A DNA stretch of 48,340 bases from positions 1 through 48,340 of IMG/VR virus record IMGVR_UViG_3300032047_000027; one strand, given 5' to 3'. Below the pieces are notes generated by a model that worked only from the letters and a program-made list of their open reading frames with translations, ran no database searches and was not told where the DNA came from. The DNA is from a virus. Both the position numbers and the translations under genes were made by a program. How positions within the stretch are numbered: position 1 is the first letter of the stretch; every line of letters starts with the position of its first letter. Positions 2,286 to 29,221 of the stretch are shown in pieces.

Positions 2286-3631
2286 TGTCTAAAGGGTCTC
2301 AATTAAAGTTTTTAAGAAAACTACACGAGGAGTTAGCTATGGGCTCTAAGGAGTACAGAAGAAATGTTGCTAACTTTCAAACTCATACATTTAGTTTGAG
2401 AGGAAGAGAGCTTAATAAAGCAATAAGGGCGTTAATTGGAGCTTACTTTCCAAATGCTACTAAAACGAAGCAAGATAAAGTAGTAAAAAGATGCCAACCT
2501 GCAATGAATAAGTTTATTAAGGCAGTAGGTCAAAAAGTAAAAAGAACATCTGTAACTAGTGACGGTATACATAGTGTAAAAGTAACAAAAAGAACCGTAA
2601 TAGCTACTTTTGACGCTACTGGGGGCAATAGGTACGAAAAAGTATATAACCAATATGCTCGTGGTGCAAACTATGTAAAAACTTTTACTAACGAAATACT
2701 AGATATATTCCAAGAAGAGTTTGGAGCAGTGCCGGGAAAAGAGGTAGACGGTAAACTAGTAGAGGTAGAGGCAGGGGATATATTTAACCTGGAACACGCG
2801 CACCAAAGAGGGTCGCTAGAAAGTTTGGTAAAAGATTCTATTAGTAACGCGGTAGCTGATTCTGAAAAACATACTAAAGCAGAGGTAAATAAGTTTTTTG
2901 ATAAAAATGGTATAAGCTTAGAGCTAATAAGAGATACAAAAACTGATACAATGCAGGTCTTTTTAGGTTCAAAGATAATAAACCTAGAAGAAGCCGCAAT
3001 TAGTAACGCAGAAGTACAAAAGTTGAACGCAGCCTTAGAAAAAGCCATACGACAGCTAGAATCAAATGGTAATAAATTAAGTTATATGGAAGGCTCTCCC
3101 TCTTTTGCAGAGGTAAAAGAACTAGATGCAACAGAAAAAGTTTTAGCGAGTTTCAGAAATAAAAAAGGTCATAAAGTATCTAAAAAAGAAAAAGTACGAA
3201 AAGGCAAAAGCAGTTCCAAACTAGATGTATCATCTGCTAAAAACTTAGGAACTCCTTTAGCTAAAAAGAAGTTAAAAAAGAGAAAAGCTAAAAAGTCAAA
3301 GGCTGGAGCAGCTTCCACACCTTTACAGCTAGTAGCTTCCTTAAACAAAGTTCTACCTGGTGCTATTAGAAAGAATATGAACGAGCCAGCATTAGTAAAC
3401 AGAAGTGGCAGATTCGCGGATAGTGTAGAAGTAACAGACGTTATAACTACGAAAAAAGGTTTTCCTAGTATCGGTTATACTTATGACAGAGACAACTACG
3501 GACAATATGAAATAACTAGTGGATCGAGATTTGCAGATGCACAACGAGACCCAAGAAAGCTTATAGACGGGTCTATAAGAGAAATAGCGGCAAAAGCAGC
3601 GATCGGAAGATTTTTTACTAGGAGAAATTAA
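2285..3631 (+). CDS. Probable neck or tail-completion structural protein, lysine-rich
   Basis: This 448-residue protein has no family I can name firmly. It is very basic, with a Lys-rich block around residues 290-340 (KKKLKKRKAKKSKAG). The last 100 residues (RSGRFADSVEV, GSRFADAQRDPRKLIDGSIREIA) resemble the ends of minor head-tail joining or tail-completion proteins (HK97 gp10/lambda gpZ type). It sits between the adaptor and the tail-terminator gene and overlaps both by one base, which is where head-closure and tail-completion proteins are encoded. It is longer than usual for that role. A DNA-contacting function for the basic block is inference only. Confidence 0.5.
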   Translation: MSKGSQLKFLRKLHEELAMGSKEYRRNVANFQTHTFSLRGRELNKAIRALIGAYFPNATKTKQDKVVKRCQPAMNKFIKAVGQKVKRTSVTSDGIHSVKVTKRTVIATFDATGGNRYEKVYNQYARGANYVKTFTNEILDIFQEEFGAVPGKEVDGKLVEVEAGDIFNLEHAHQRGSLESLVKDSISNAVADSEKHTKAEVNKFFDKNGISLELIRDTKTDTMQVFLGSKIINLEEAAISNAEVQKLNAALEKAIRQLESNGNKLSYMEGSPSFAEVKELDATEKVLASFRNKKGHKVSKKEKVRKGKSSSKLDVSSAKNLGTPLAKKKLKKRKAKKSKAGAASTPLQLVASLNKVLPGAIRKNMNEPALVNRSGRFADSVEVTDVITTKKGFPSIGYTYDRDNYGQYEITSGSRFADAQRDPRKLIDGSIREIAAKAAIGRFFTRRN

Positions 3632-27487: not shown

Positions 27488-27937
27488 ATGCATACTGTTA
27501 CAAAAATAACAAATGTTGATATATCTGTCTTTGACGAAATATACGAAGGAGATAAAACTCGTATATCCACCGCTATAGGATATGATGATATAGATCATTT
27601 AAAAACTTATTTTACTGGAGAAGATCCGTATCTTTTTCAAGCTGTAGACTCCTCTAATCAAGTAGTGGCTTATATTATGGGACAATCTATGGGGCAAGGA
27701 GTGATTCGTATTGTAAATATGATAACTCGTACCGCAGGTACAATACCTGATTTTGTAGAGCCTAGTGCAATTTTATTAAAATCTTTAGGCTTCAAGGAAG
27801 TGCACTTTTGTGTAAAAGTAAATGGAACTTCTTATGTTTTTTGTAAAAATAATTTAAACAGAAATGATATTTACCAATATATTGGTGAGACTATACCATA
27901 CGAGGAATATACTGATATTAAACTATTACTAGTGTAA
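27488..27937 (+). CDS. Hypothetical protein, last gene of the tail module
   Basis: This 149-residue protein is not recognised. The alternation of strands and helices (VVAYIMGQSMGQGVIRIVNM, AILLKSLGFKEVHFCVK) is faintly like an acetyltransferase fold, but the acetyl-CoA loop is not evident, so no function is given. It lies two bases after the previous stop. It is followed by the 23S-like element and the convergent terminator. Confidence 0.5.
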   Translation: MHTVTKITNVDISVFDEIYEGDKTRISTAIGYDDIDHLKTYFTGEDPYLFQAVDSSNQVVAYIMGQSMGQGVIRIVNMITRTAGTIPDFVEPSAILLKSLGFKEVHFCVKVNGTSYVFCKNNLNRNDIYQYIGETIPYEEYTDIKLLLV

Positions 27938-27940
27938 GTT

Positions 27941-28018
27941 TTAAAGCTAAGCAGGTCTTTCCCGAGGAACTTACCCGACACTACAGTTTCGCTACCTTAG
28001 GACAATGCTACGCTTAAA
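27941..28018 (-). ncRNA. 23S rRNA-like structured element (domain IV, helix 71 region)
   Basis: Read on the minus strand, three blocks match bacterial 23S rRNA in order: GTCCTAAGGTAGCGAAA (27987-28003, 17 of 17), TGTCGGGTAAGTTCC (27966-27980, 15 of 15) and GACCTGC (27951-27957, 7 of 7). These are E. coli positions of roughly 1925-1970. Six bases replace the usual five between blocks one and two, and eight bases (TCGGGAAA) are inserted before block three. Flanks AAGCTAAGC and GCTACGCTT can pair over most positions and enclose the core. On the plus strand the same DNA would be antisense to the host 23S rRNA and is directly followed by a terminator. Which strand is transcribed cannot be told. 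The match is from memory of the 23S sequence. Confidence 0.7.
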
Positions 28019-28023
28019 GAAAT

Positions 28024-28048
28024 GGGGGCTTATGCCCCCGTCTCTTTT
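28024..28048 (+). terminator. Bidirectional terminator between converging modules
   Basis: GGGGGC at 28024-28029 pairs with GCCCCC at 28034-28039 around TTAT. The plus side is followed by a T-rich run (CTCTTTTTCTT), the minus side by ATTTCTTT. It contains the stop codon of the minus gene at 28030. Confidence 0.8.
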
Positions 28049-28254
28049 TCTTCTTCCTCTTCTTTTAACAACTCAGCCCTTAGTTGATCGATAAACTTAA
28101 TCTCTGCAGCAGAATAATGCTGTGCCTTTCTTTCGGCTTTTGCTTTTTCTGTGGCAATTTCATTAAGATTAAATACTAAATATTTAGCATTATCAGAAAC
28201 ATCCTCTAAATTATACTGTTTGTCGTCTAAAGTAAATGTATTTTCTTCTGTCAT
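28030..28254 (-). CDS. Small conserved phage protein, 74 residues
   Basis: Starts at ATG 28254 (MTEENTFTLDDKQYNLEDVS); the longer frame upstream overlaps nrdB and lacks support. The motif of a short strand pair followed by LEDVSDNAKYLVFNLNEIATEK and a charged helix is seen in small proteins of T4-like and marine phages, function unknown. It ends with an acidic run of Glu. It is the last gene of the replication unit, 7 bases after nrdB, and its stop lies within the terminator hairpin. Confidence 0.65.
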   Translation of the reverse strand: MTEENTFTLDDKQYNLEDVSDNAKYLVFNLNEIATEKAKAERKAQHYSAAEIKFIDQLRAELLKEEEEEKETGA

Positions 28255-28261
28255 AATATAC

Positions 28262-29221
28262 CTACTTAAATATGTCTTGCCAGTTACCAGTGGTACTAGC
28301 TCGTGAATATTCAGTCGCACGATTTTCAAAGAAATTTGCGTGCTCAACTGCATTTAACATATAATCAAGCCAAGGAAGTGGGTTATCATTGCTACCAAAG
28401 ATTTTCTTCATTCCTAGACCCAATAATCTTCTATCCGCAATATAGCGAATATAGTCTTTTACCTCTTGTGCTGTTAGATCAGGTACATCTGCATCTTCAA
28501 AACACAAATCAATAAAAGCATCTTCTAGTTCTACTGTACGCTCTGCCGCACAATAAATTTCATACTTTAACTCGTCATTCCACAACTCTGGATTTTCTTG
28601 AATAAAAGTACGGAAAAGTTGAGACATTCCCTCTACGTGGAGGCTTTCATCTCGTATTGACCATGTAACAATCTGACCCATGCCTTTCATCAAGTTATGG
28701 CGTGGAAAGTTCAACAGTATAGCAAAACTACTGAATAGTTGCACTCCTTCTGTGAACCCAGAGTAGATAGCCATAGTTTTTGCTATATCCATCTTACTGC
28801 CCATACCGAAGTCACTAAGATGTTCATGTTTATCCATCATTGCTTTATGTTTCATAAATTCCTGATATTCTTCTTCAGGAAATCCTAGAGTTTCTAGCAA
28901 CAATGAATATGCTTCTTGATGTACTGCTTCCATTGCAGCAAAAGCACTTAGCATCATTCTTACTTCAGGCTGTTTAAATGTAGGTAGATAATGCTTTGCA
29001 TACCCACAACATACATCTACATCAGCCTGAGTAAAGAAACGAAATATTTGAGTTAATAATTTTTTATTGCCAGGACTTAACTTCTCTCTAAAGTCTTTTA
29101 GATCATCAGCCAAGTTCACTTCGTCTGGCAGCCAATGCATATGCTGCTGAGACTTATAATGCTCGAAAGCCCATGGATAATTAAATGGTTTATAATATTC
29201 TCTTTCTTGTAATAAATTCAT
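28262..29221 (-). CDS. nrdB: Ribonucleotide reductase class I, small (beta) subunit
   Basis: Provides the radical used by NrdA to make deoxynucleotides. Metal ligands are present: Asp in FTQADVDV, Glu and His in AMEAVHQEAY, Glu and His in RDESLHVEGM. The Tyr seven residues after the first of these Glu (AMEAVHQEAY) corresponds to the radical Tyr122 of E. coli. With 319 residues it is slightly shorter than bacterial forms. ATG 29221 is preferred over GTG 29233, since GAGGG precedes it and the overlap with the nrdA stop is minimal. It follows nrdA in the same unit. Confidence 0.92.
   Translation of the reverse strand: MNLLQEREYYKPFNYPWAFEHYKSQQHMHWLPDEVNLADDLKDFREKLSPGNKKLLTQIFRFFTQADVDVCCGYAKHYLPTFKQPEVRMMLSAFAAMEAVHQEAYSLLLETLGFPEEEYQEFMKHKAMMDKHEHLSDFGMGSKMDIAKTMAIYSGFTEGVQLFSSFAILLNFPRHNLMKGMGQIVTWSIRDESLHVEGMSQLFRTFIQENPELWNDELKYEIYCAAERTVELEDAFIDLCFEDADVPDLTAQEVKDYIRYIADRRLLGLGMKKIFGSNDNPLPWLDYMLNAVEHANFFENRATEYSRASTTGNWQDIFK

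Follow-up and report, generated by a model that had tools for sequence, protein, structure and literature searches.

A putative antisense RNA to 23S rRNA helices 69–71 at the end of the tail module of a marine T5-like phage, with related cassettes in other phage groups

The snoRNAs pair with pre-rRNA in a bipartite manner, possibly in a chaperone role, and to our knowledge the snoRNA machinery is absent from bacteria. Among phage antisense RNAs, those of the c4 type are thought to carry their antisense segments in loops (PMC12197685). Synthetic PNAs directed against H69 and the PTC of 23S rRNA inhibit translation and growth (PMC7038079), and in pre-50S particles H68 and H69/H71 are mobile, with H71 guiding PTC folding (PMC11260487). 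We found no report in the open-access literature of a phage RNA antisense to rRNA. Here we describe a phage cassette that, judging from its sequence and context, is very probably an antisense RNA to 23S rRNA; on our best reading, it and its relatives would form a new class, phage antisense RNAs that are linked to a terminator and directed at 23S rRNA.

The cassette lies in a 48 kb stretch of viral DNA (48,340 nt, hereafter the window), a fragment of a marine T5-like phage. It carries a D5-like regulator, an NAD ligase, an SbcC/SbcD-like nuclease and a T5-type major tail protein, and the isolates nearest to its DNA polymerase are Demerecviridae. The cassette occupies the point at which a plus-strand tail module meets a minus-strand RNR/replication module (Table 1). 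A first-pass annotation of this DNA had described three ordered 23S-like blocks of 17, 15 and 7 nt with a changed link, an 8-base insert, pairing flanks and a bidirectional hairpin beyond them, and each of these was recovered: the blocks, at 27951-28003, are exact reverse complements of LT2 23S, the link and insert are CTACAG and TTTCCCGA, the flanks form the AAGC/GCTT and AGCA/TGCT stems, and the hairpin is at 28016-28050. The minus strand is rRNA-like; by gene order and terminator position, the plus strand, antisense to 23S, is the one placed for transcription and termination. A sigma-70 promoter scan around the cassette gave no more than chance level. The proposed comparison with covariance models of 23S came back empty: Rfam 15 gave no gathering-level match in the window, its LSU rRNA models gave no match in 27850-28120 even at E values up to 10, and across ten related loci it recognised tRNAs only and nothing over the cassettes.

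Table 1. Features of the cassette locus in the window (23S reference: Salmonella LT2 23S gene, L173, in E. coli numbering)
Feature	Position	Strand	Remarks
Final tail-module gene	27488..27937	+	149 aa, without PHROG family; cassette starts directly past its stop codon
Antisense cassette, ~72 nt	27944..28015	+	Enclosed by stems AAGC/GCTT and AGCA/TGCT
Closing stem AAGC/GCTT	27944-27947 with 28012-28015	+	
Closing stem AGCA/TGCT	27950-27953 with 28006-28009	+	
GCAGGTC	27951..27957	+	7 nt, exact complement of 23S 1959-1965
8-nt insert TTTCCCGA	27958..27965	+	Identical in L004
GGAACTTACCCGACA	27966..27980	+	15 nt, exact complement of 23S 1944-1958
Link CTACAG	27981..27986	+	23S counterpart UUCCU (1939-1943); mostly unpaired in modelled hybrid
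Seed TTTCGCTACCTTAGGAC	27987..28003	+	17 nt, exact complement of 23S 1922-1938
Intrinsic terminator	28016..28050	+	Directly 3' of cassette; GC-rich stem then T-run; bidirectional hairpin
Final gene, convergent RNR module	28030..28353	-	107 aa, phrog_21153

Conservation in related phages, which the first-pass annotation proposed to look for, was found in two loci. The cassette of L002 is identical to that of the window, and that of L004, a diverged T5-like relative, differs at a single position of the core 53 nt, whereas 27% of fourfold sites differ in the RNR gene next to it (core conservation P = 1.2e-6). The closing stem AAGC/GCTT has become AGGC/GCCT in L004, a compensatory change, and one plus-strand G-C pair has become G-U, where the minus strand would have an A.C mismatch. 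As regards covariation, also proposed as a check, we observed this single compensatory stem change and one weakly covarying pair in group D (see below). The cassette is missing from some 80 loci that have a similar RNR gene, in several cases within the same synteny; those inspected retain the terminator alone. The hairpin at the RNR/tail convergence (28016-28050 in the window) is kept in the cassette-less loci L006, L008, L009, L091 and L092. A scan of 35 whole records for the seed returned nothing closer than matches with two mismatches.

Searches of IMG/VR returned 17 stretches with the 17-mer seed and at least 80 with a 15-mer. The sequence TTTCGCTACCTTAGG, complementary to 23S 1924-1938, occurs in at least ~70 other viral contigs of some ten groups, and the first 15 nt of the seed TTTCGCTACCTTAGGAC are common to about ten phage groups. 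We have kept the number of seed matches out of the evidence because a 15-mer is expected some tens of times by chance at this collection size; seed-based retrieval is also biased to exact matches. Groups A to K were assigned partly by hand from the sequences and gene context, which placed 69 of the 80 listed matches, with phage types taken from PHROGs and the nearest isolates for representatives only. Among the matches listed, these are A (T5-like, two besides the window), B (four, adjoining tRNA genes), C (four, T7-like podoviruses), D (29), E (two), F (12, T4-like), G (four, T4-like), H (three), I (five), J (three actinophages, one being Rhodococcus phage Trina) and K (one). Diverged members of group J are present in the Rhodococcus phages NiceHouse, Weasels2, Peregrin, Grayson and Francesca. 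The group B cassettes L174, L179 and L182 lie near tRNA genes. The remaining 11 listed matches are four unplaced singletons, four chance or coding look-alikes, two genuine 23S sequences and L178, a viral contig in which a 23S-like stretch of ~40 nt (~3441-3480) lies within an ORF, is unlike the cassettes and is possibly an assembly chimera.

Blastn of the element against phage and plasmid sequences found nothing beyond contaminating 23S and short matches due to chance; the pattern GGTAAGTTCCN{1,30}GACCTGC hit 68 further viral contigs, which we judged on inspection to be chance; and a pattern scan of genome contigs found three ordinary 23S genes with an assembly N or an extra base. The group F and D cassettes have no homologue among isolates, and the cassette is absent from HTVC008M, Melnitz, Mosig, S-BM3, DLP_6, CRP-125/361/804, LUZ100, Bylgja, VspSw_1 and IrisVonRoten. 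Wobble seed matches in S-BM3, LUZ100, CRP-804 and VspSw_1 were taken as chance without individual inspection. Since related isolates such as HTVC008M, Melnitz, Mosig and S-BM3 do without it, the cassette is optional.

A second region of complementarity, which played no part in selecting the loci, lies upstream of the seed in several groups. In C, F, G, H and J this second block is complementary to 23S 1962-1976, and in group I it pairs with the same positions through G-U pairs. When the upstream 60 nt were shuffled with the seed retained, second-block pairing exceeded nearly all shuffles in groups A, C, F, G, H, I and J; there was no such excess in groups B, D, E and K, where pairing is above chance with the seed block alone, nor in four chance controls. 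For the window, 100 dinucleotide shuffles of the 60 nt ahead of the seed, the seed itself being left unchanged, never produced comparable second-block pairing, which together with the conservation in L004 upholds the earlier judgement that the similarity is more than chance.

The modelled hybrid of the window cassette with 23S 1918-1980 has a net energy of -42.9 kcal/mol, that of Trina -35.2 and those of other families -21 to -52 kcal/mol, as against -0.3 to -8.3 kcal/mol for the opposite strand, all computed on a naked 63-nt rRNA fragment and not on a 50S particle. When the second block and the seed are both paired, the model places the RNA like a clamp on either side of helix 71, and in most second-block groups H71 stays intact between the two blocks. 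The window's modelled hybrid opens H71 instead, its second and third blocks pairing into 1944-1965. Several transitions within the blocks (A to G, C to T) preserve G-U pairing with the rRNA, as seen by inspection without a formal test, whereas some transversions and one group J change (CTCAGG in Peregrin/Grayson) break rRNA pairs. Most group J members have a hairpin between the two blocks; its loop, GGTCAAGTTCCA, is common to Weasels2, Peregrin, Grayson, Francesca and L239, while the stems around it come in one version in Weasels2/Peregrin/Grayson and another in Francesca/L239. The GGTCAAGTTCCA loop (L252, L291, L292, L293, L239) resembles the sense H71 loop GGGTAAGTTCC. A GGTGTCA-type motif past the seed is common to groups C, I and K (L175, L177, L187, L211, L232), and in group C it is able to pair with an upstream ACACC.

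Terminators and gene orientation distinguish the strands. A terminator lies within 90 nt past the antisense strand in 53 of the 79 matches listed, with matches inside a group not independent, and past the sense, rRNA-like strand in 1 of the 79, against 2.9% of random positions; in 25 of 26 representatives the nearest upstream ORF points the same way as the antisense strand. Group F and G cassettes follow the T4-like major head gene (gp23), a site at which HTVC008M, Melnitz, Mosig and S-BM3 have a terminator alone. Groups G and H have an additional terminator ahead of the cassette, so that the cassette may be its own transcription unit there. In sequence and position the cassette fits a phage antisense small RNA: it is intergenic, runs in the direction of its upstream gene, precedes an intrinsic terminator and is complementary to its putative target above chance. 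One of the two readings in the first-pass annotation was a plus-strand antisense RNA that targets host 23S and forms the end of the tail transcript. This reading is supported by terminator position, gene orientation and conservation, by the existence of relatives in some ten phage groups, and by the additional complementary block.

The annotation's other reading, in which the minus strand imitates 23S and titrates a ribosomal protein, an rRNA-modifying enzyme or a nuclease, draws on sequence identity with a modified, protein-contacted region of 23S, but we consider it very improbable. Terminator and gene orientation are on the wrong side in nearly all groups; in the window a minus-strand transcript from the RNR module reaches the hairpin at 28016-28050 first and the cassette after, which places the element beyond the RNR-operon terminator; and the insert there splits the H71 pairing on which a mimic would depend, with the H71 sequence missing from groups C, F, G and H. 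Passive capture of an rRNA gene fragment, or a DNA-level site for a homing endonuclease or integration, would fit the 23S 1923-1931 region, a known intron and homing site. Exact blocks with replaced linkers, the constant orientation and terminator, the conservation in L004 and the lack of H71 sequence in several groups make this extremely improbable.

Two further explanations accept that the RNA pairs with 23S. MazF-mt6 cuts 23S near helix 70, and a guard or splint could protect or rejoin 23S cut near 1939-1961 by a host toxin or defence nuclease; the blocks do flank this area, namely 1939-1943 in the window's case and 1939-1961 in that of other groups, but unsystematic inspection turned up no antitoxin, ligase or defence gene in linkage, and we regard this as improbable. 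A cis-acting ribosome tether in the 3' UTR, somewhat like the 3' translation enhancers of plant viruses, would let a late mRNA hold the 50S subunit through 23S and so favour its own re-translation or stability. Late genes, gp23 among them, do carry cassettes in their 3' UTRs, and the terminator follows immediately. However, pairing would occupy the subunit interface, which ought to keep a bound 50S from joining the 30S, and the terminator ahead of the cassette in groups G and H cuts it off from the upstream mRNA; a tether is therefore unlikely, if less so than the preceding explanations.

We consider it probable overall that the cassette is a plus-strand antisense RNA on 23S helix 69-71 that acts on the 50S subunit. 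The structured RNA, ended by its own terminator, would be made with the late tail transcript as its 3' end, or else as a processed small RNA, and we strongly infer that it base-pairs with helix 69-71 in domain IV. Late in infection it might capture immature pre-50S particles or free 50S subunits, in which H68-H71 are mobile or exposed, and block the final folding steps or subunit joining, so that fewer new host ribosomes would be produced. Given the mobility of H68, H69 and H71 in pre-50S particles and the part of H71 in PTC folding, an RNA clamped around or into H71 could either hold the 50S immature or prevent it from joining the 30S. We propose this capture mechanism tentatively, as somewhat doubtful, with transcription, pairing in cells and effect on the 50S all inferred. 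A strong ribosome poison made together with late mRNAs could harm the phage itself, and the block order in the window, as modelled, invades H71 and does not spare it. The broader proposal, that a mobile antisense cassette in many unrelated phages controls host ribosomes as an assembly brake or subunit lock, perhaps by showing H71 in a junction read by a nuclease or assembly factor, we hold to be close to evenly balanced.

The similar RNAs in about ten unrelated phage groups suggest that many phages make antisense RNA against host ribosomes, and an almost universal target would suit phages with varied hosts. If this is true, phages act on the host ribosome by RNA as well as by proteins, the target site is conserved enough for one RNA design to serve across many bacteria, and the cassettes would be naturally occurring starting points for directing antisense agents at ribosome assembly. 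Given that the cultured Rhodococcus phages Trina, NiceHouse, Weasels2, Peregrin, Grayson and Francesca carry members, some diverged, the proposal is directly testable.

Bipartite rRNA pairing is a likeness between the cassette and the snoRNAs. Like P1/P7 c4 and P22 sar, the cassette is phage-encoded, structured and predicted to pair through exposed complementary segments; the antisense targets treated in a review of phage small RNAs are mRNAs, however, and it mentions neither rRNA nor 23S (PMC12197685). The proposed RNA resembles rancRNAs in being a small RNA on the ribosome itself, rancRNA_18 being on the large subunit, but these are cellular and not phage genes, and their review contains neither 'phage' nor '23S' (PMC8938821); for the cassette RNA a duplex with 23S rRNA is predicted. 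Synthetic PNAs are likewise antisense to neighbouring functional 23S elements (PMC7038079), though they are artificial and the cassettes natural, structured and mostly bipartite. PhiKZ014 provides a precedent for a phage factor on the host 50S subunit, but it is an early protein at the 5S rRNA, whereas the cassette would be an RNA against domain IV encoded beside late genes (PMC10914614).
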